Shown here piece by piece: positions 11,960 to 22,936 of a DNA stretch of 23,208 bases (position 1 is its first letter; the number at the start of each line of letters is the position of its first letter). The DNA lies in the IMG/VR virus record IMGVR_UViG_3300046010_003830, positions 1-23,208 of that record; one strand, given 5' to 3'. The DNA is from a virus. The notes beneath the pieces are model-generated. The model did no database searches. It was not told the DNA's origin and worked only from the letters and a program-made list of their open reading frames with translations. The translations under genes were made by a program, and so were the position numbers.

Positions 11960-14900
11960 ATGATTAACGAGAGCTACTCTGGTCTTCGCACGCTTAACGA
12001 CGCCTTTTCGGACAAGGGTAAAGAGTTTGGCAATACCATTGTCCAAGGCTACAAGCAGCTGATGTTGTCTGGCGCTACGGCAGACGACCTTCGGCTGTAC
12101 GCGGTAGCGACAGGGTACGCTCCCATTCGGGTTGATGAGTTTGGCGCGTCTCAAGACCTGACCGACTACTTCTCTCAGCGCGCGCCCCGGGGCTTTCTTG
12201 AGGGCGCTCAAGACTTTGGCGCGGGGGCTGTTAAAAGCATTGTGACGGAAAGCGCGGCTTTGTTGCCGTCAATGCTTGGCGCGGCTAAAGACATTGTTGG
12301 CATTGGTGGCGAGGAGTCGTACAAGACCGCCGAGCGCTGGAGGCAGGCGTCAGAGGCTTACACTCCCTCGTACTCAAACGAATACCGTATCTCGCGCGAG
12401 TCGCGCCAGCGCAGCGCGTTCTTTGACTTTAAGCCACAAGACGTGGGTCAAGGGTCTGGAAGCACGCTGCAGTTTGCGTCAACCGGCGGGGGCCTAGCGC
12501 TTACCAAGTACGGCCTCAAGACGGCGGGAAAAGCCCTAGCTAAGACAACCGCTGGAGCGTCCGCTGTTTCTCGTGCCGGAAAAGTTGCTTCTAGGTTACC
12601 GGCAGGCTTGCGCACCGCGAGCGACGCAATTAGCCGTGGCGCTAGGTTTGCCGCTGGCTCGACCGGCGTTCAGGCGGCATCGCTACAGATGGCCGGTAGC
12701 GCGGGCAAGGAAGCGTACGAGACGCAGGTAGCTCAGGCCGAGGAAGCTGGCCAGCAGTACGATCCCGAGCAAGCACGCAAGGAGCGTCGTTTGCCGATTG
12801 CGATGGGCCTTGTGTCCGGCCAGTTTGAGCGCACAACCGACGCGCTGATTGGCAAGCTTGCGCCGGGCCTTGCGGGCAAGGTAACCGCGCCTGTTTCCGG
12901 CAAGCGCATCCCTTTGCCGAAGGCCAAGGACTTGCCCGGCTTCTTTACCACTGGGGCCGTGGAGATTGGCAAGGAGTACCTTGGTGAGCAAGGCGAGGCG
13001 CTAGCGGGCTCAGTAGGCAAGGCGTCGTACCTCAAGGACGACTCGACAATCATGAGCCGGTTTGCTGAAAGCCAAGCAAGCCTGTTTAACACGGTTCCGC
13101 TTGCCACGTCGCCGTTGGCTGCTATGGCAGCGTTTAAGGCTAAGGCAACAAAGGGCCGTCTGTCCGAGCTAGAGAAGATCTTTAACGGCGATAAGTCCTT
13201 CTTCCGTGTTGGCGACCGCTCGATGCAACCGCTCGAGCAGCAGACGGTGAAGTACGCGGACATGACTCCTGAGCAGCAAGCCGAGATGCGGCAGGAGTTG
13301 ATGGACACGGGCGTGGCTTGGGACCTGACAACGGCAAGCACCGAAGCCCTAGACGAAGCCGCTAAGAACTTGGCGTCTACGGGCGTGCGCGTGGTCTTTG
13401 TCAAGCCGTCAGACAATGCGACGGATATTTCCAGCGCGACAGGCGTAGCTGAAGACAAGATCACCACCGGCGAGTCCAACGGCCATGTTGGCTGGTACGA
13501 CGAAAAGACTGGCACGGTGTACGTCAACGCGGCGGTGTCGCCGGAAATGCAGTTTGCCGTAGTCAAGTCGCACGAGGTAGTGCATGACCTTCGGCGTTCG
13601 TTTCGTGGCGACATTGACGCCTTGCGCCAGTACTTCATTGACACGTTTGGCGACGAATACCTGAAGTTTGAAGAGCAGAACTTTGGACCCTCGAGCGCTT
13701 ACGCTGATCAAGCGCGCAAGGACAACCCTAAGTTTTCGGTCGCTCAAGTTGACGACCTGCTCACGGAAGAAGCGCTGACCAACTTCATGACCAACCGCAT
13801 GTCGGGGTATTTGGCTACCAGCCTTATGTCCGACGCGGACATGATCAAACTGTACGAGCGGTCCCCGGGCATCTTTGCCGACATGGTTGACGTCATCACG
13901 TCTTGGGGCAATCAAATGCTCAAGCGCGGAACTGCGTCTCCGTTCCAAGAGCAAATCATCAACAGGCTGTTTGACTCGGCCAAGGCGTTTGAGGCGCAGT
14001 TTAGCCAAGAGATCAATCGCAAGGTCGGCGGCGCAACCGAGTCAGGCAAGGGCGGCGTCGTCAAGGCGATGGGCGCTGTCACCAAGTTCAACGAGACGAT
14101 CTCGGACTTGCTTGACCGTCGGCGCGATCTGATGTCAAAGGCTTCCGGCATGCTTGACTCCGGCACAAGCGAAGCCGACGTCGAGCAAGCCATTGCTACT
14201 GAGACGGGATCTCGGGGCCTTGCCCAAGACATCATGAAGCGCTTGCAGCTATCGCGCGGTACAGCTGCGGCGACGGGCACGGCAGGCGCAACAGGTACGG
14301 CAGGCGCTGCGGGCTCTACGTCAACGACCACTACCCCGACAACGACCACCCCGACCGCTGCTGCACCCAAGCCAATCCCGGCTGGCGCTAAGGACACGTC
14401 TGGGTTTAAGCTTCCCACGACCGTCAAGAACGGCCAGCAGAAGTACGGTAGCAACAACATTGACTTTGAAAGTGACTTTGACCGAGCCGCTTACATTGTT
14501 GCGACCGAGGGAAGCGGCAGGAAGTCCACAGCCGCCGCTACCCAGCTAAAGGCTGACCTGAAGAAAGCCGGGTACAACCTAAACGACGTCACCCGTCACG
14601 GCAATGCCGTGCGCACGGAGGTCAAGGCTCAGGCAAAGGGCAAGGCCAATCAGCGCGTGATGATTGGGGCCACGCCGTTTGTGCCTGTTCCGCAGAAGCC
14701 CAAGGGCAAGGCGACGCCCAAGCCCGCTGCAACGACTACGCCTGCGCCTACAGAGCCCGCTGCGCCTACTGCGCCGGTAGAAGCGACTACGCCTACGCCT
14801 ACGCCCGAAGCCGCGCTTGAAGCCGAGGGAGCCGCCGAGGCCGAGCCTGAGCTTACCGAGGAAGGTGAAGAGGGCGAGGAAGGCGAAGAAGCCGACGCCT

Positions 14901-17900
14901 CAACCCCGCCGCCCGCCAACACAGATGTGCCTATGCCGGAGGCAACTCCTGAGCAAAAGACCAAGGCCGTTGAATTGCGCGAGACTATTGACGGGTTGAC
15001 GGCAATGCTGGCGCCCGAAGCAGCAGAACTGCGTAGCGCCCTGTCAATGACCAACCCGGAGTTGTCCGGCAAGACAGACGAACAGATCGTTGAGATCCTT
15101 CGTGGCCAGATTGCTCAAGCGCAATCAGACCTAGACGACATCCCGGGAGGCGCAAAGCTGCGCGCCTTTATCCCCAACGACAACGACACAGGCGATTCGA
15201 CGCTTGGGTCGGTCCCGGGGTTCAGGCGCATTGTTGACGCTATGAAGAAGCGCGTTGCCCGGGAGATGAAACCGGGCAAGGCAATGGCAGGCGCTATTGG
15301 ATACCAAGGCACCGGCGAGCGCCGCAGGATTGTCACCGACGTTCAAGACATCAACGTTCAGGCTGACTACGAGCAGCTGTTCAATAGCAAGACCGGCTTA
15401 AACGTAGTGTCTAAGCTGGTCGAGATCGTCAAGAGCTCCAAGGACTTCCGGTTCATCAACCGTGGCGAGCTAAAAGGCAAGTCGGACCGCGAGGTGCTCG
15501 AAATCGCCATCGAGCGCATGGCGGACAACCTTGAAGACCTGTTCCTGCTTATGGACCCGCAGGCCCGCGAGGCCGCAAAGCTGTGGTACCGGGGCGCGAA
15601 CATCATCGGCGGCTACTGGTCTAAACGCTACGGGATCTCGCTAGAGAAGGCCGCTGCCATGATTGCGGTGTTTAGCCCCCAGAAAGACTGGGACCAAAAC
15701 ATCAGCTTGACAGAGCGCGTGCTTGACATGTTTGTCGCTATGGATCGTGCCGTCATTGACGACCAAGTCTTCAAGGATGGGTTTAACGCCAAGATTGCGG
15801 AGATCCAAGAATCTATCGACACGATTAGGAACCGCGAAGCAAGGTACCGCAAGAAGCTGAGTAAGGCGTCCCCGGAAGAGCGCGCCGAGATGCAAAAGGC
15901 CAGAAAGGCCAAGCGCGCGCGGGACGAAGCCGAAGTCAATGCCGCGCTTAAGACCATCAAGAAACTAGAGCGCGTGCGTGACTCGGTTAAGGGCAAGAGC
16001 ATTGGCGACCTTGTCCGCGAATATGTAAGGCTCACAAAGCCTAGCGCTGAGTTTGTCGAGCGGGCCACAGGGTGGACTGCAGAGCAAATGGCGCAAAACC
16101 AGCAAGAGATCATTACCGCAAGAGAAAACGTACGGTATTCGGTCAAAGCTTTTGACGAAGCCAAGAACAGCCGTGAGTACACGCGCGCACGCCCGGATGG
16201 CATGCTGTACACGCCGACCGGCGACAGCGTTGCTTGGGGCAGCACAAACATTGTCGAAAAGGCACTAAAGATCTGGCTGGCTGATGAGTCAGACCTTGAG
16301 ACAGTGTCTATCCAGCTGGGCTCGCAGAACAAGGTGCGCAGCTTCTACTCTGACATTGCTGACCCAACCAACGAGCTGACGGTCACGGTTGACACGCACG
16401 CTATCGCGGCTGCGCTGATGCAGCCTCTGTCCGGCGAAGACACCGTCGTCAAGCAGACCTTGTCAAAAGCCCCGGGCAGCGATGCGCTTGGCACGTCAGG
16501 CCTATACGCCCTGATTCGCGAGGCGTACATTAGATCGGCAAAGCGCCACGGCGTGCTGCCCAAACAAATGCAGTCAATCGTCTGGGAGCAGATCCGCTCT
16601 CTGTTTGACTTGCCGAAAGGTACGCGGTATGGAGCCTCAGGATCGGAAGCTAAAGCAAGCAAACGTGCAATCACAGAAGCCATTGACCGCGCAGCCGTCG
16701 TTGGCCGCGAACAAACCTTTGCCACAATCCGCGAAGCCGCTGGTGGAGCACGCCTACCGGAATGGGTACTGGCATCAACTGAGCCTAGAACTTCATTCTA
16801 TTCTGCGGGACGGACATCGACCTACAGTGGACCTTTGGTTGCAAGAGGCCTATCCAAATTTAAGCCGCAAGCAGAGATCGAACGTGGAGCTGATGAACGA
16901 GGCGGTCGAGGAGGTGCAAAACTACGAGCGTTTGTTCCGAACGAAAACATCAGCTTCTTCACCAAGTACCCGAATGAGCTGAAGCCGTCGAACAAGGCCC
17001 TGCAGGATGCGCTAGAGCCTTGGCTGGCTGAGAACCCTCAACTGCTTGAGCAGTTCGAGGACCCAGACATCAATCTGGTTAACGTGGACCCGGAGATTGA
17101 GCGGTTCCTTGAAGGTTCTGCGTTTACGTCCCCGGACGGAAAGCCCGTGCCGCTTGTCCACTCCACGGCCATTCGCCGGGCTGCCTACTCTTCAGGCTTT
17201 GCAAGCACGCCCAGTGAAGGCGTGGCGAACTTTGCACCGTACGCGCACCTAGGTACGCCGACTGCCGCTATTGACAGAACGGTTAACCCGTTCCTCCGTC
17301 ACCCCACGCAGACTGACATCTTCTCGCTGCCGTCGGTGCAGGGCCTGTCTAACGACGAAAAGATGAAGGTTCTTTGGCGCGCAGACAAAGCTTTCAAGCT
17401 GACGCTGCAGATCAAGAATCTATTCAAGAATGCGTCTGACCTAGCCGAGCAGATCAACGTTGGCGCTCTTGCTTTGACGCCCACCGGGTCTATTGAGAGC
17501 ATGCTGGTGGCGGCTGTCTCTAAGTCGCCGTCTATCAAAACCTCCCAACCTCAACCGGCGTTTGTCGCTCCTGAGCCGTCGCCCGTTCAAAACCCTGAGG
17601 GCCTGCTAGCGTCTTTGCGTGAGGCGTACAGGCTCAACATCGTTAAGTACCTCAACGCGCGCAGCGAGCTTCGCGCCCTTGCCGAGGAGAACTCCCAGCA
17701 CTTTGCCGTAACCGAAACAGCGCGTCCTCGGATGGTGCTGTTCACGAACGGATCCTTCGCGTCGGTCGTTGACTACCCTATGGTGGTCTCTGCCAAGTCC
17801 CCTGTAGTGACGTCGGACAGCGTAGCCAATACGTTTGACCCGAAGAGCTTTTCGGATGTCACCTACAACTACTCTGTGCATGCCGGTCACTTTGCGGTCG

Positions 17901-20900
17901 CGTTCAACATCCTGAAGGAAAAGTACGCGGGCGCGGCCTTAGCGCCAAAGATTGCAGAAGCGCGCGCGATCATGAGCCGCATCTCGGCCGTGGACGCATT
18001 CGAGGTTCGTCCGTCTTACACCCGCGTCACAACGTCTGCGCTAGTTGACGAGGCCGGGGACCCGAAGTTCACGAAGACGATTTCGTATGACTTTGACGGC
18101 CATCCGCGCTCGTTTGAGCTAAAGATGGACCTGCAGTCGTACGAGACGGTTTCGCCGGTGGCCATGGAGTTCATGATGTCTTGGGTCAATGCCAAGGACA
18201 TCATCAAGTACTACGAGCTATCGGTCCCGGACGTTTACAACGCTGTGGTAGCTAGTGGCTACAGCCCCAGCACCGACGGGCCGGTTGAATGGGCTAAGGC
18301 GTTTACGGCCTTCGCGGCTGCGGCGTACTCGGAGCCTGAGTCCGAAGCAAGCCAGATGGTTGACGCGCGCCGCCTAGTCAAGAAGGCGATGAACGGCTAC
18401 CACCACTTTGCCGCTTCACACGCGCTGTTGAGCGCAGGCATTGACGGGATCATGTACGTCAACGAGGTCGAAGACATCAAGAGCATGAGCTTCATGACCT
18501 TGTCTTCTGGCTCGGTCCGTCCGGTGCTAGCGACCGGGGCTGACCCCATGGCAAACCCGGCCAAGATGCGCGCGTTCTTCCCGGACCCGCGCCCGTGGTT
18601 TAGCAATGGCCGCGACAAGAACAATCCTCTGGACTTCAGCCAGATGGACGACCCCTCGATGGGCTTCTTCATCAAGAGACTTGGTGACAAGCTCATGGCC
18701 CCTCGGAATGTGCAGAAGGCCATTGAAGCAGCCAAGGCCGCTGGCGTTCCGAACCCGGTGACGGGCCGGTTGACCCGGTTCCGCGAGACGATGGATTTCA
18801 GCGCGCGCGCCGACATGCACAAGGCGCAGCTCGCCAAGATGCTTCAGTACTCGGACGAGATCATCTCTCGTATCCAGAAGGCCTTGGCTGATGGCGACAT
18901 CCCGCTTACAGCTACTTCGGCTACTTCGTCTGGTGCTGCGCCGACCGGCATTCCGTCTGCCGAGGAGTACTTGTACGCCAAGCACGCCAAGCGCCGAAAC
19001 GCTGTCTTGTTGGTTGACGACCTGATGGCGGACGACGTGTACGCAGCAGCGCTGGCAGCCGGTAACTCGGTCGCTGCGGCTGCTAGAGCGGCACAGATGG
19101 TCGCGCGCAACCCGAACCTGATGTCGCAGTCAGGTATGACCAACGCTCAGGCCGACGACATCCTGAGCCGGGCAGCGGCAAGCGGCAAGCAAAAGCACTA
19201 CGACGAGATCTCTGCTGCGTCGCGCGACCTGCAATCCCGCAAGCTCAAGCTAGCCGTCCAGTACGGTCTATTGAGCGAAGAAGCGTCCCGTGACTGGCAA
19301 AGCAAGTACGGGCCCGACTACATCCCGCTCAAGACAACCAAGAACGATCCGTCCGAGACAACCTTTGGCGGTAGCTCGTTTTCGATCAAGGGCCGCGAAT
19401 CAGAACGGGCCAAGGGCCGGACGTCGCTTGCCGACGACTTGCTTGGATTTGCCATTGTGGACTACGGCGCGGTCGCTTCGCGCGCTGTGCGGAACCGCGT
19501 TGGTCAAGCGTTCTTGACGCTGCTGAAGGCCAACCCGAACCCGTCATGGGAGTTCTACAAGAACCGAGACGCAATCCCCGTCAAGGACCTTGAGCGCGTC
19601 ATCACGGCTAAGTTCAAGGGCAAGGAAGTCCACGTCGTCATTCGCAATGCCGAGATCGTCAAGGCACTGCGTGACATGGACTCGCAAAGCCTGTCAACGT
19701 TTACGGCGTGGACGGCTTCACTGACGCGCTTGTACACCCGGCTGAACACGCAGTACAGCCCGGCGTTTATCCCGACCAACTTCCTGCGGGACGCTGGCTT
19801 GGGCTTGTTCTTTACTTGGGTTGACCGGGGCACAGAGACGCTGAAGGTGATGTCTAAGTACATGCCGTCAGCAACTAGGACGTGCTTCCAGATGGCGTTT
19901 GGTCGTAAGCCGACCAATCCCCAGATGGCCAAGTTCTACAACGAAATGGACAACGAGGGCGGGTTCACTGAGTACGCCCAGTACCAGAGCGTTGAAAGCG
20001 CAATGGCCGAGTTGCAGCTAGAGATGGACATTCTGTTTGGCCGTACCAAGCCCGGCACGGTCCTGCGCGCTGTCAAAGACATCACGCCTGACATCGCCAA
20101 GCGCCTAGCACTCAAGATCGGCAGGGTGCTGGTCGGCTTTGGCCAAGTGTCAGAGCGCAGCGTGCGCCTTGCGAGCTACGCAGCGGCCCGTACGCAGAAT
20201 GGCATGTCGCCCCTCAAGAGCGCCGAGGAAGCCAAGAACCTCACGATCAACTTTGAGCGCGGTGGAACGGCGTCTCCGACGCTCAACACCATGTACACGT
20301 TCTTCAACGCGCGCATGCAGTCAGCGCTAAACATCAACCGGCGCATGCCGTGGGCCGCAGATCGCACCCCCGAGCAGAACCGGCGCATGATTGGCGGCCT
20401 GACGGCCATGATGATGTTTGGTTACATGAACCACTTCATTGCCCGCATGGCCGCCGACGATGACGACGAAGGCGAAAACAAGATGAAGAACATTCCCAAG
20501 CACGAGCTGCAAGGGAACATCGTTGCGCCTAGTAAGCTCGGACAAAACGGTCGAATCAACATCCCGCTCCCGTACGGACTGAACGTGCCGTACTACGCTG
20601 GTGTCGTGCTCGACCGGATCATTGCCGGGTACGAGACGCCGACTGAGGGCATGGGCAACTTTATGGAAGTGGCGCTGACGAACATCAGTCCCATGGACGG
20701 GGCAAGCTTGGCCCAGTTTGTTTCGCCTACGTTTGCAGACCCAATTGTGCAGGTTGTAGAAAACGCCGACTTCCGTGGCCAGAAGATCTACCCGGACCAA
20801 AACCCGTACGATCGCACGCCGGTCCCGGACAGCCAGCTCTCGTTCAAGACTGTAAACCCGGCGATCAAGGCAGCGGCCGAATACCTGAACGAGCTAGCCG

Positions 20901-21385
20901 GGGGAAGCGAGCGCAAGAAGGCAGCCATCAAGATCCTAGACATCTCGCCCGAAAGCATTGAGCACGTCCTGCGCTTTGTGGCTGGGGGCGCGGGAGACTA
21001 CCTGTTCAGTAGCGTGGACGGGTTCATGAAGCTGTTTGGCGAAGGTCCGTCTACGGTGCGCGAGGTTCCGCTGGCAGGACCGATTGTCGGTCGGTTCTTC
21101 CGCGAAACGCCCGCCGCCAACCGGACCATGTCTGAGTTCTACGAGAACATCCAGAAGATGGCCGAATGGCGAGACGACTTCGAGGACCCAAAGACCAAGA
21201 ACGAAGCGTCTAGAAGCAAGCTGCGGTCCATGGACAGCCTTACGACCGACACCGAAAAGGAAATCCGGGGCCTACGCAAAATGGCTAAAGAAGCTACTGA
21301 TCCGAATGCGCAGGAGCGGTACACTAAGAAAATGCTGCTCCGCATGCAGCAGTACAACATCAGGTTCAATCGCCGGACAAAGTAG
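11960..21385 (+). CDS. Giant polyvalent ejection protein: zincin, SPQ module, ART-like, LPD38-like
   Basis: This gene encodes 3141 residues. Modules seen in order: a Gly/Ala-rich helical N-terminus (about 1-400); a zincin with HEVVH at 538-542 and a possible third ligand E603 or E604; Thr/Pro linker (767-800); a small domain with FESDFDRAAYIVATE (about 815-900); Pro then Glu-rich linker (907-992); a module with SPQKDWDQN (1239-1247), a coiled coil insert (about 1270-1345), KVRSFYSDI (1458) and TVDTHA (H1480); an ADP-ribosyltransferase-like module from FLEGS (1716) and HSTA (1734) to GIDGIMYVNEVED (2160-2172); and a C-terminal region with NFLRDAGLG and FFNARMQSALN typical of LPD38 (about 2330-3060). 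Polyvalent proteins of this kind are known in phages and conjugative elements and are thought to act on the host after injection. The T7 gp16 position is matched, but no transglycosylase motif is seen. TAAGGAAA supports the start. Confidence 0.8.
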   Translation: MINESYSGLRTLNDAFSDKGKEFGNTIVQGYKQLMLSGATADDLRLYAVATGYAPIRVDEFGASQDLTDYFSQRAPRGFLEGAQDFGAGAVKSIVTESAALLPSMLGAAKDIVGIGGEESYKTAERWRQASEAYTPSYSNEYRISRESRQRSAFFDFKPQDVGQGSGSTLQFASTGGGLALTKYGLKTAGKALAKTTAGASAVSRAGKVASRLPAGLRTASDAISRGARFAAGSTGVQAASLQMAGSAGKEAYETQVAQAEEAGQQYDPEQARKERRLPIAMGLVSGQFERTTDALIGKLAPGLAGKVTAPVSGKRIPLPKAKDLPGFFTTGAVEIGKEYLGEQGEALAGSVGKASYLKDDSTIMSRFAESQASLFNTVPLATSPLAAMAAFKAKATKGRLSELEKIFNGDKSFFRVGDRSMQPLEQQTVKYADMTPEQQAEMRQELMDTGVAWDLTTASTEALDEAAKNLASTGVRVVFVKPSDNATDISSATGVAEDKITTGESNGHVGWYDEKTGTVYVNAAVSPEMQFAVVKSHEVVHDLRRSFRGDIDALRQYFIDTFGDEYLKFEEQNFGPSSAYADQARKDNPKFSVAQVDDLLTEEALTNFMTNRMSGYLATSLMSDADMIKLYERSPGIFADMVDVITSWGNQMLKRGTASPFQEQIINRLFDSAKAFEAQFSQEINRKVGGATESGKGGVVKAMGAVTKFNETISDLLDRRRDLMSKASGMLDSGTSEADVEQAIATETGSRGLAQDIMKRLQLSRGTAAATGTAGATGTAGAAGSTSTTTTPTTTTPTAAAPKPIPAGAKDTSGFKLPTTVKNGQQKYGSNNIDFESDFDRAAYIVATEGSGRKSTAAATQLKADLKKAGYNLNDVTRHGNAVRTEVKAQAKGKANQRVMIGATPFVPVPQKPKGKATPKPAATTTPAPTEPAAPTAPVEATTPTPTPEAALEAEGAAEAEPELTEEGEEGEEGEEADASTPPPANTDVPMPEATPEQKTKAVELRETIDGLTAMLAPEAAELRSALSMTNPELSGKTDEQIVEILRGQIAQAQSDLDDIPGGAKLRAFIPNDNDTGDSTLGSVPGFRRIVDAMKKRVAREMKPGKAMAGAIGYQGTGERRRIVTDVQDINVQADYEQLFNSKTGLNVVSKLVEIVKSSKDFRFINRGELKGKSDREVLEIAIERMADNLEDLFLLMDPQAREAAKLWYRGANIIGGYWSKRYGISLEKAAAMIAVFSPQKDWDQNISLTERVLDMFVAMDRAVIDDQVFKDGFNAKIAEIQESIDTIRNREARYRKKLSKASPEERAEMQKARKAKRARDEAEVNAALKTIKKLERVRDSVKGKSIGDLVREYVRLTKPSAEFVERATGWTAEQMAQNQQEIITARENVRYSVKAFDEAKNSREYTRARPDGMLYTPTGDSVAWGSTNIVEKALKIWLADESDLETVSIQLGSQNKVRSFYSDIADPTNELTVTVDTHAIAAALMQPLSGEDTVVKQTLSKAPGSDALGTSGLYALIREAYIRSAKRHGVLPKQMQSIVWEQIRSLFDLPKGTRYGASGSEAKASKRAITEAIDRAAVVGREQTFATIREAAGGARLPEWVLASTEPRTSFYSAGRTSTYSGPLVARGLSKFKPQAEIERGADERGGRGGAKLRAFVPNENISFFTKYPNELKPSNKALQDALEPWLAENPQLLEQFEDPDINLVNVDPEIERFLEGSAFTSPDGKPVPLVHSTAIRRAAYSSGFASTPSEGVANFAPYAHLGTPTAAIDRTVNPFLRHPTQTDIFSLPSVQGLSNDEKMKVLWRADKAFKLTLQIKNLFKNASDLAEQINVGALALTPTGSIESMLVAAVSKSPSIKTSQPQPAFVAPEPSPVQNPEGLLASLREAYRLNIVKYLNARSELRALAEENSQHFAVTETARPRMVLFTNGSFASVVDYPMVVSAKSPVVTSDSVANTFDPKSFSDVTYNYSVHAGHFAVAFNILKEKYAGAALAPKIAEARAIMSRISAVDAFEVRPSYTRVTTSALVDEAGDPKFTKTISYDFDGHPRSFELKMDLQSYETVSPVAMEFMMSWVNAKDIIKYYELSVPDVYNAVVASGYSPSTDGPVEWAKAFTAFAAAAYSEPESEASQMVDARRLVKKAMNGYHHFAASHALLSAGIDGIMYVNEVEDIKSMSFMTLSSGSVRPVLATGADPMANPAKMRAFFPDPRPWFSNGRDKNNPLDFSQMDDPSMGFFIKRLGDKLMAPRNVQKAIEAAKAAGVPNPVTGRLTRFRETMDFSARADMHKAQLAKMLQYSDEIISRIQKALADGDIPLTATSATSSGAAPTGIPSAEEYLYAKHAKRRNAVLLVDDLMADDVYAAALAAGNSVAAAARAAQMVARNPNLMSQSGMTNAQADDILSRAAASGKQKHYDEISAASRDLQSRKLKLAVQYGLLSEEASRDWQSKYGPDYIPLKTTKNDPSETTFGGSSFSIKGRESERAKGRTSLADDLLGFAIVDYGAVASRAVRNRVGQAFLTLLKANPNPSWEFYKNRDAIPVKDLERVITAKFKGKEVHVVIRNAEIVKALRDMDSQSLSTFTAWTASLTRLYTRLNTQYSPAFIPTNFLRDAGLGLFFTWVDRGTETLKVMSKYMPSATRTCFQMAFGRKPTNPQMAKFYNEMDNEGGFTEYAQYQSVESAMAELQLEMDILFGRTKPGTVLRAVKDITPDIAKRLALKIGRVLVGFGQVSERSVRLASYAAARTQNGMSPLKSAEEAKNLTINFERGGTASPTLNTMYTFFNARMQSALNINRRMPWAADRTPEQNRRMIGGLTAMMMFGYMNHFIARMAADDDDEGENKMKNIPKHELQGNIVAPSKLGQNGRINIPLPYGLNVPYYAGVVLDRIIAGYETPTEGMGNFMEVALTNISPMDGASLAQFVSPTFADPIVQVVENADFRGQKIYPDQNPYDRTPVPDSQLSFKTVNPAIKAAAEYLNELAGGSERKKAAIKILDISPESIEHVLRFVAGGAGDYLFSSVDGFMKLFGEGPSTVREVPLAGPIVGRFFRETPAANRTMSEFYENIQKMAEWRDDFEDPKTKNEASRSKLRSMDSLTTDTEKEIRGLRKMAKEATDPNAQERYTKKMLLRMQQYNIRFNRRTK
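14273..14353 (+). repeat. Short tandem repeats encoding a Thr/Gly/Ala/Pro linker
   Basis: Two 18-base units (14273-14290 and 14291-14308, three mismatches) each encode TGTAGA. Two 15-base units (14324-14338 and 14339-14353) each encode TTTTP. They lie between the zincin and the next domain of the giant protein and look like a flexible spacer that grew by slippage. Confidence 0.8.
14861..14890 (+). repeat. Nine-base repeats encoding an acidic EGE tract
   Basis: Three degenerate nine-base units encode EGE EGE EGE followed by E, at residues about 968-977 of the giant protein. They end a Pro/Thr/Ala-rich linker that starts near residue 907. Low complexity and strong charge fit an exposed spacer. 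Confidence 0.8.
15152..15175 (+). repeat. First copy of the AK[LM]RAF[IVF]P protein motif
   Basis: This encodes AKLRAFIP (residues 1065-1072 of the giant protein), preceded by GG and followed by NDND. It marks the border between the linker region and the SPQ/TVDTHA module. Codons differ from the second copy, so the likeness is kept at the protein level. Confidence 0.75.
16629..16982 (+). CDS. Possible overprinted gene in +1 frame inside the giant gene
   Basis: An ATG at 16629 with AAAGG at 16616-16620 opens a 117-codon frame shifted +1 from the giant gene. It begins MEPQDRKLKQ, has a Gln/Lys/Pro-rich first third, then a helical, natural-looking part (AYRNGYWHQLSLELHSIL, PTVDLWLQEAYPNLS, NVELMNEAVEEVQNYERLF). 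Counted by hand over 16742-16912 (57 codons), GC by codon position in the giant gene's frame is 36, 37 and 19; in the +1 frame this becomes high, low, high, the normal coding pattern. A control stretch near 13562 gives 25, 10 and 28 of 41 in the giant frame, as expected. The giant frame here is rich in Gly, Arg, Ser and Thr. Either this is a real overlapping gene, or the giant frame has two compensating shifts. It may also be chance. No function is recognised. Confidence 0.35.
   Translation: MEPQDRKLKQANVQSQKPLTAQPSLAANKPLPQSAKPLVEHAYRNGYWHQLSLELHSILRDGHRPTVDLWLQEAYPNLSRKQRSNVELMNEAVEEVQNYERLFRTKTSASSPSTRMS
16916..16939 (+). repeat. Second copy of the AK[LM]RAF[IVF]P protein motif
   Basis: This encodes AKLRAFVP (residues 1653-1660), preceded by GG and followed by NEN. 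It lies between the SPQ/TVDTHA module and the ADP-ribosyltransferase-like module. The return to the normal codon pattern of the giant frame happens at about this point. Confidence 0.75.
18560..18583 (+). repeat. Third copy of the AK[LM]RAF[IVF]P protein motif
   Basis: This encodes AKMRAFFP (residues 2201-2208), followed by DPRPW. It separates the ADP-ribosyltransferase-like module from the C-terminal LPD38-like region. Confidence 0.7.
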
Positions 21386-21987: not shown

Positions 21988-22404
21988 ATGCCCTCCGTAT
22001 CAGCATTGCCGGGTAGTGGCCCGATCTACGGAACGGGCACTAGCGATTACTCTAAGAACCAGAACGTCACCAAGGAGTTTAAGAGCTACGGCGGTACCTT
22101 GGGCTATGGCTATGCCGGTGACCAAGAGCTGAATGCGTACGCCAAAAGTCTGCCAAAGCCTTCTCCAGCGGCCAATGCTTTTGGATTAGTGATGCCCAGC
22201 CTTGCAAAGCTGCAGGCCAATAGTCTGGCTTTTGCCAAAAACAAGCAGGGGTTCTACAACTTGATCAAGAACAACCCCAATCTGGCGCGCCAGTATCAGG
22301 GTGGCTTAAAGGGCTACCTTGGCAAGTCGATGTACCAAATGCTGATTGGCAATATGCCCCAGACGTCTTTGTACAACAATCTTGCTAAAGGCCTTTTCTT
22401 CTGA
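21988..22404 (+). CDS. Hypothetical late phage protein
   Basis: This gene encodes 138 residues, not recognised. The N-terminal third is rich in Gly, Ser and Tyr (LPGSGPIYGTGTSDYSKN, then SYGGTLGYGYAGD) and probably unstructured. The rest is helical with many Asn, Lys and Leu (FAKNKQGFYNLIKNNPNLAR, then GKSMYQMLIG) and ends NLAKGLFF. There is no signal peptide or catalytic motif. AAGGAG at 21973-21978 is a strong site nine bases before the ATG. The position after the small membrane genes leaves open a structural or a lysis-related role. Confidence 0.55.
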   Translation: MPSVSALPGSGPIYGTGTSDYSKNQNVTKEFKSYGGTLGYGYAGDQELNAYAKSLPKPSPAANAFGLVMPSLAKLQANSLAFAKNKQGFYNLIKNNPNLARQYQGGLKGYLGKSMYQMLIGNMPQTSLYNNLAKGLFF

Positions 22405-22422
22405 CAGCAACCCAAGCAAGCA

Positions 22423-22433
22423 AAGGAGGTGAT
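22423..22433 (+). promoter_or_regulatory. Exceptionally strong Shine-Dalgarno site
   Basis: AAGGAGGTGAT is an 11-base exact complement of the 3' end of proteobacterial 16S rRNA. The GGAGG core ends eight bases before the ATG at 22438. Other genes in the window have four- to six-base matches. Confidence 0.8.
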
Positions 22434-22437
22434 TGAA

Positions 22438-22485
22438 ATGAAGTGCGGAACGAAAAAGGGTTCGGGCAAAAAGCGCCCGCGCTGA
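22438..22485 (+). CDS. 15-residue basic peptide gene
   Basis: The ATG is followed by 14 more codons and TGA, giving MKCGTKKGSGKKRPR. Seven of 15 residues are Lys or Arg, with one Cys. Such a short frame would usually be ignored, but the 11-base Shine-Dalgarno site at ideal spacing argues for heavy translation. Tiny Lys/Gly-rich genes at the ends of late operons occur in other phages, in my recollection, without known function. It could bind nucleic acid or act through translation itself rather than as a product. The terminator hairpins start two bases after its stop. Confidence 0.5.
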   Translation: MKCGTKKGSGKKRPR

Positions 22486-22486
22486 T

Positions 22487-22506
22487 AGGCTGACAGCTCT
22501 CAGCCT
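22487..22506. other. Hairpin after the late operon
   Basis: AGGCTGA (22487-22493) and TCAGCCT (22500-22506) form a perfect seven-base stem with a six-base loop. No T-run follows. A smaller stem, GCCTG/CAGGC, lies at 22524-22536. Together with the next hairpin they fill the space between the convergent genes. Confidence 0.55.
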
Positions 22507-22536
22507 CTGCCAGTCAGGCACCAGCCTGCGGCAGGC

Positions 22537-22570
22537 AACGCCAGCACCGTCACAGGGCTGGCGTTTGTCT
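22537..22570 (+). terminator. Probable transcription terminator between convergent units
   Basis: AACGCCAGC (22537-22545) and GCTGGCGTT (22557-22565) make a perfect nine-base stem with an 11-base loop, followed on the + strand by the T-rich TGTCTTT. On the other strand no T-run follows, so termination is best supported for the late operon. The - strand gene stops at 22571, so the hairpin may serve both directions. Confidence 0.6.
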
Positions 22571-22936
22571 TTAGCGCTGAGTCCATTCCAATGTTTTGGC
22601 GTCGTAGTGCATCCACACAGCTCGAACTTCCCAGCGCTTGGACTTGTTCTTTGCCCAGCCGTGGACCAGCAGCAACCCGCCAGCCGAAGACCAAAGAGCC
22701 GCTTCGGCCGACTCTTTGATCTTGTTGATCCGTGCAGACATGTTGCTCTTGCTCGTAGTCTGGACCCCAACAATGTTGGTTGCGTTGGACTCCAAGACCT
22801 TGATCGCAACAATGTCGATGATTCCGAATAGGTCCTGCCTCACGCGGGCGTGGGGGTTCCATCGCTCTACGACTTGGGCTGTGTAGCCTTCGTCCCGCAA
22901 GAGCTTCAGGCTTCGCTGCGTGGGGCTGGATGCCAT
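22571..22936 (-). CDS. Nuclease-fold-like protein (PD-(D/E)XK pattern, altered site)
   Basis: This gene encodes 121 residues from the ATG at 22936, chosen because it follows the upstream stop as TGA-T-ATG. An in-frame ATG at 22996 would add 20 residues inside the upstream gene and is less likely. The pattern RQDLFGIIDIVAI (about 32-44), then VGVQTTSKSN (about 55-64), then SARINKI and a later GLLLVHGW strand resembles small phage proteins of the PD-(D/E)XK nuclease fold (Holliday resolvase or VRR-NUC type). The D of GIID can be the metal ligand, but the usual E-x-K appears as Q-T-T, with a Lys two residues on. Activity is therefore uncertain. It could be a DNA-binding remnant of the fold. Confidence 0.55.
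   Translation of the reverse strand: MASSPTQRSLKLLRDEGYTAQVVERWNPHARVRQDLFGIIDIVAIKVLESNATNIVGVQTTSKSNMSARINKIKESAEAALWSSAGGLLLVHGWAKNKSKRWEVRAVWMHYDAKTLEWTQR

Follow-up and report, generated by a model that had tools for sequence, protein, structure and literature searches.

The window analysed here is the whole of a 23,208-base virus record (IMGVR_UViG_3300046010_003830, positions 1 to 23,208). Towards its right-hand end lies a tiny gene of 15 codons (start ATG at 22438, stop TGA at 22483-22485), which stands behind a long Shine-Dalgarno (SD) site and in front of two hairpins and an intrinsic terminator (Table 1). It is the last gene before the terminator of the window's rightward cluster, in a late/head location. 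The encoded peptide has a computed mass of 1.66 kDa, a pI of 11.2 and a charge of about +6.5.

Table 1. Positions of the tiny gene and adjoining features in the window
Feature	Position	Strand	Remark
Gene directly upstream, 138 aa	21988-22404	+	A different gene, for an 82-aa DUF6321-like protein, replaces it in L010/L011
Shine-Dalgarno site AAAGGAGGTGAT	22422-22433	+	12-base match to 16S 3' end
15-codon putative microprotein gene MKCGTKKGSGKKRPR + TGA	22438-22485	+	Frame conserved in relatives
Hairpin AGGCTGA-CAGCTC-TCAGCCT directly after stop	22487-22506	+	
Second GC-rich hairpin	22507-22535	+	
Intrinsic terminator AACGCCAGC..GCTGGCGTT TGTCTTT	22537-22572	+	End of rightward gene cluster
Convergent downstream gene, 141 aa	22571-22996	-	Relatives at same place in L010/L011

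In order to rank the ribosome sites of the window, we computed the pairing energy between the 20 bases upstream of each ATG and the 16S 3' tail. The ATG at 22438 ranked first among the 580 ATGs of the window with -20.7 kcal/mol; the next-best ATG reached -14.5 kcal/mol, and the other plausible gene starts lay between -0.6 and -11.1 kcal/mol. The initial annotation, made from the letters of this DNA, had called this the strongest ribosome site in the window and had assigned it to a peptide of 15 residues, and both statements were borne out. It had also given the site a length of 11 bases; the site is real, but the match covers 12 bases of a 16S tail ending in TTTCT once the leading A at 22422 is included. 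The sequence AAGGAGGTGAT occurs a single time in the window (22423-22433, plus strand), with an expectation of 0 from 100 dinucleotide shuffles. A GTG within the SD, in frame with the gene, was considered as an alternative start; its own pairing is weak (-8.4 kcal/mol), so that the ATG at 22438 is preferred.

The hairpin that had been described two bases past the end of the gene was likewise found, at a distance of one to two bases after the stop. Folding of 22485-22575 gave z = -5.6, and in the terminator a TTTGTCTTT tail follows a GC-rich stem. Scanning the window for Rfam families and tRNAs returned no match. As a side observation, a single frame of 3141 codons (11960-21385) takes up 40% of the window and would encode a very large phage protein.

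Relatives of the locus and the wider CGTKKG family

L001/L003 and L002 are near-identical relatives. A comparison of the window with L001 shows SD, gene, hairpins and terminator (about 22420-22575) almost unchanged as a block, and on both sides of it, where the upstream gene ends and the downstream region starts, identity falls to 38-65%. The diverged stretches around this SD-gene-terminator island (22361-22419 and 22576-22900) look as if the neighbours had been exchanged on both sides. Two more distant relatives, L010 and L011, in which a neighbouring 71-aa gene is 71% identical, show the same SD, here AAGGAGGTGATT, then MKKCGTKKGGKKMPR, a terminator equivalent to that of the window and the convergent gene; another hairpin (CTGATC..GATCAG) stands at the position equivalent to the hairpin at 22487. 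In L004-L009 the 71-aa gene is present and the tiny gene is absent from the stretches examined, which indicates that the tiny gene is dispensable. A frame broken in relatives had been named beforehand as the finding that would speak against the gene; apart from L004-L009, which are without it, the frame is intact in every relative that keeps the gene.

Pattern scans of IMG/VR extended the conserved frame from L001/L002 and L010/L011 to about 35 more phage contigs with the core CGTKKG. The pattern MKKCGxKKGxK, with two codons open, matched 31 viral contigs, two of them those of L010/L011; in the remaining 29 the encoded sequence is exactly MKKCGTKKGGKKK, with a stop directly behind it. The MKKCGTKKGGKKK genes belong to an AT-rich podophage clade, and some have an N-terminal extension, e.g. 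MKKKPVKSEKKSMKQSMKH. With CGTKKGxKK, 36 viral stretches were matched, all but one of them (35) short basic frames of this kind, and L044 and L048 (ending in MAKCGTKKGGKKK), L046 (MGKKKSCGTKKGTKKKPK, GTG start) and L047 (MSKKCGTKKGGKKK) were added. KCGTKKG further added L095 (MRNKCGTKKGKGGKGK) and L102 (MPKCGTKKGGKGGKGGGY); its other new matches look like chance, with the exception of L086, which has no ATG near the core and is a doubtful member. Viral matches L045, L085, L087-L094, L096-L101 and L103-L107 look like chance frames, and all that a relaxed search with the SD pattern yielded in addition to family members was three unrelated frames (L060-L062). When CGTKKGxKK was applied to 257 Gb of bacterial and archaeal contigs, 22 matches were obtained, mostly in unrelated frames; one of the 22 (L073) lies within a MAG on a contig that belongs to the AT-rich phage clade, and two are alphaproteobacterial chromosomal genes.

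Members of the family have stand-alone frames of 13-18 codons, or up to 32 with the N-terminal extension, each with a start and a stop, one invariant Cys, the core C-G-T-K-K-G and a Lys/Gly-rich tail; the variation found in them is solely synonymous, the core being largely the search criterion. Nearly all have a charge of about +6.5 and a pI above 10. They occur in separate lineages, namely the window clade, L010/L011, the AT-rich clade, L046, L047, L095 and L102, and the phages that carry them range in GC content from 0.32 to 0.58. The profile scans for protein families start at 20 residues, a length for which the 15-aa peptide is too short, and the neighbours were scanned instead. No match was found by blastn of the window's 3' end against phage records or by tblastn of the 32-aa form, and blastn of a 70-base stretch of L010 gave weak, chance-like matches. 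The tiny gene is also absent, in the stretches examined, from isolates with the DUF6321-like neighbour (CRP-3, CRP-738, HTVC106P, SIO1 and others) and from isolates with a related capsid protein (HTVC027P, CRP-902, DSL-LC04, GB2A and others). A full-text literature search with the core strings found no paper. The CGTKKG phage microproteins appear to be a so far undescribed family of tiny basic phage proteins, itself a known kind of protein.

The genome scan with CGTKKGxKK also led to microgenes of 10-27 codons across one alphaproteobacterial order, which encode MPGCGCGTKK(K), MAENQDCGCGTKKGSKK, MADCGCGCGTKKGGKPKDSKK and others (loci L108-L114 and L125-L148; genomes G001, G002 and G012-G050). 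These chromosomal microgenes are present in more than 20 of 43 genomes. Each has a very strong SD (-12 to -24 kcal/mol), and an intrinsic terminator lies a short way past the stop; a promoter-like element, TTGACAAG, was found in 11/11 upstream regions inspected. Eleven MPGCGCGT alleles vary at third codon positions only. In core and in design, promoter-SD-MPGCGCGTKK-terminator, they are the same as the phage gene, the common core being the search criterion. It is conceivable, though in our view rather unlikely, that the two groups form two arms of a single undescribed class of C-G-T-K-K peptides that are extremely short and very strongly translated, have passed between phages and hosts and share a Cys/Lys-based activity.

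Selection on the peptide and RNA-level readings

The 13-residue form occurs in the AT-rich clade as 13 distinct alleles, which have no variable first codon position, no variable second position and nine variable third positions, although the search patterns demanded most of the core, so that identity at those codons is partly by construction. At the sense codons that the pattern left free (T6, G10, K12 and K13), first and second positions are again invariant and three third positions vary. Most contigs of the family belong to one clade. When the sequences of the AT-rich clade are compared ungapped, the frame has a median nucleotide identity of 90%, against 42% for the 40 upstream bases and 45% for the 60 downstream bases. 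Synonymous-only variation between diverged flanks indicates that the peptide is under purifying selection, and the tiny gene is almost certainly a conserved, translated microprotein gene.

The ribosome site has a different distribution. Its pairing ranks first in its own locus in the window, L001, L010, L011 and L013 and is good in L025, L047 and L095, but it is weak or missing, with the peptide kept, in L014, L017, L018, L020, L021, L033 and L037 (about +1.5 to -3 kcal/mol). In L018, L040 and L043 the ATG of the tiny gene lies a few bases past the stop of the upstream gene, a spacing that would permit coupled translation. The conservation that the initial annotation wished to see in related phages thus holds for the frame wherever the gene is kept, and for the site in the window clade and L010/L011, but fails for the site in many AT-rich relatives.

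The same annotation had offered two explanations for such strong initiation, an abundant basic peptide or a ribosome-sequestering or RNA-stability function. As far as sequence can tell, the first is favoured, through the purely synonymous changes and the strong SD of the window clade and L010/L011. In the second, the function would lie in the RNA only: the 12-base SD would sequester ribosomes or shield the 3' end of a late mRNA, and the peptide would be incidental. The window's strongest SD, with hairpins and a terminator adjoining, would speak for such a function, and minigenes with a strong SD can protect mRNA or be toxic (PMC8708949). However, the frame changes synonymously only, the flanking RNA is not conserved, a gene of 15 codons is unlike a drop-off minigene, and many relatives with a weak or absent SD keep the peptide unchanged, which means that a role of the SD alone does not explain the family. 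This RNA-only explanation is largely refuted, and we consider it highly improbable. A leader peptide or attenuator, in which translation of the short frame controls the hairpins behind it, is suggested by a short frame directly 5' of stem-loops; yet the terminator is followed by no same-strand gene that could be regulated, the next gene being convergent, and many peptide-bearing relatives are without such hairpins behind the gene, which makes this explanation hardly credible.

Gene neighbourhoods and proposed function

The tiny gene usually lies among late or structural genes. In the AT-rich clade it is found between head genes and a protein matching the DNA-ejection family phrog_598, and the capsid protein has relatives in HTVC027P, CRP-902 and further phages whose capsids are Mu gpT-like. 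The order in L047 is portal, phrog_2423 gene, tiny gene and major head protein; in L095 the tiny gene stands just before the terminase subunits, and in L046 it comes after tail-region genes. A DUF6321-type gene is directly upstream in six AT-rich contigs and in L010 and L011, ending a few tens of bases before the tiny gene (L010, L011, L017, L022, L023, L026, L036 and L037). L102 is an exception to the late/head location, with the tiny gene apart from head genes and near a putative MoxR-type ATPase module. The contexts in L102 and L046 indicate that a packaging role is not implied everywhere.

Two further observations concern the neighbours. Different short Lys-rich genes (DUF6321, phrog_16028, phrog_2423 and a CWKGYEPTPGKKAYSDGSC-type) lie side by side in the late regions of L014, L021, L027, L031, L037, L047 and L086, and some of their motifs have further matches in PHROG proteins that are much longer, at the ends of these. 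In L021 (2475-3331), a frame with Cys/His-rich, HNH-like features is inserted between DUF6321-like pieces, an arrangement that would fit the splitting of this gene by a homing endonuclease.

We propose that the tiny gene would be transcribed as the last gene of the late rightward operon and that, in the window clade, its strong SD would bring about a high translation rate and many peptide copies. A peptide of 13-18 residues with a net charge near +6.5 is unlikely to form a stable fold alone, and most likely would act late in infection, through electrostatic binding to nucleic acid or to some other acidic partner. Binding to DNA, RNA or another acidic surface is the simplest reading. Possible tasks would be to neutralise the charge of DNA or to assist packaging, assembly or ejection, and the single Cys may serve as a conserved contact, a disulfide partner or a metal ligand. 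A helper in packaging, assembly or ejection would fit most of the neighbourhoods. Taken by itself, the assignment as a nucleic-acid-binding late or assembly peptide is possible and is put forward tentatively; as a compromise between this and the much firmer assignment as a conserved translated microprotein gene, we would give the two together about even chances.

The main rival is a host-directed effector, that is, a tiny late inhibitor or modulator that would bind a host protein, the ribosome or a membrane instead of DNA. Phage small proteins that act on host factors are known (review PMC11323111), the invariant Cys-Gly-Thr-Lys-Lys-Gly resembles a specific recognition motif more than generic positive charge, and in L102 the gene lies outside a head module. 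Set against this are the usual late/structural position, the very basic, Gly-rich composition and the GC spread of the phages, which implies that their hosts are probably very different; on balance we think a host effector unlikely. The role of the peptide might also be centred on its Cys: it would be a small ligand of the metal, redox or thiol type, and the lysines would serve only to anchor it on nucleic acid or membrane. All phage members share exactly one invariant Cys, though it was part of the search pattern, and in the chromosomal look-alikes TKK is preceded by two to three CG repeats; but a lone Cys is a poor metal site, and in phage members the Lys content is more striking than the Cys content. 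A Cys-centred role appears improbable.

In summary, the CGTKKG sequence has been kept by selection in several phage lineages despite its tiny size. Gene callers usually apply a length cut-off that excludes genes of 13-15 codons, and such a family is easily missed. The peptide is very small, can be synthesised and has a clear core, which makes the role of the many tiny basic phage genes directly testable.

Comparison with known systems

Fremin et al. 2022 (Cell Rep 39:110984) reportedly predicted families of conserved phage small genes by comparative genomics. The CGTKKG gene is like these as a conserved phage small gene, and its family may already stand in that catalogue. DUF6321 (PF19846), phrog_16028 (47 aa) and phrog_2423 (45 aa) are also short, very basic and encoded in late/head regions, repeatedly adjoining the tiny gene. 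However, they are three to six times longer, share no visible sequence with it and are catalogued families, whereas frames as short as the CGTKKG gene are not usually reported by gene callers.

Toxic or regulatory minigenes (lambda bar type, axe-txe mg2) consist of a very short frame with a strong SD (PMC8708949), and in both respects the tiny gene is similar. Such minigenes have about 2-6 codons and act via peptidyl-tRNA drop-off or through cis effects on a downstream gene. In contrast, the tiny gene has 15 codons where a drop-off minigene has two to about six sense codons, its peptide is conserved, with variation at third positions only, where that of a drop-off minigene is free to vary, and it has no downstream gene. 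Protein J of the Microviridae (phiX174) forms a coat on DNA and directs its entry into the capsid (PMC13386984); like the CGTKKG peptide, it is tiny, very basic and encoded among structural genes. Although protein J belongs to ssDNA phages and the likeness is an analogy at the level of function, at best one of working alike, we infer that protein J of phiX174 would be a functional analogue of the CGTKKG peptide.
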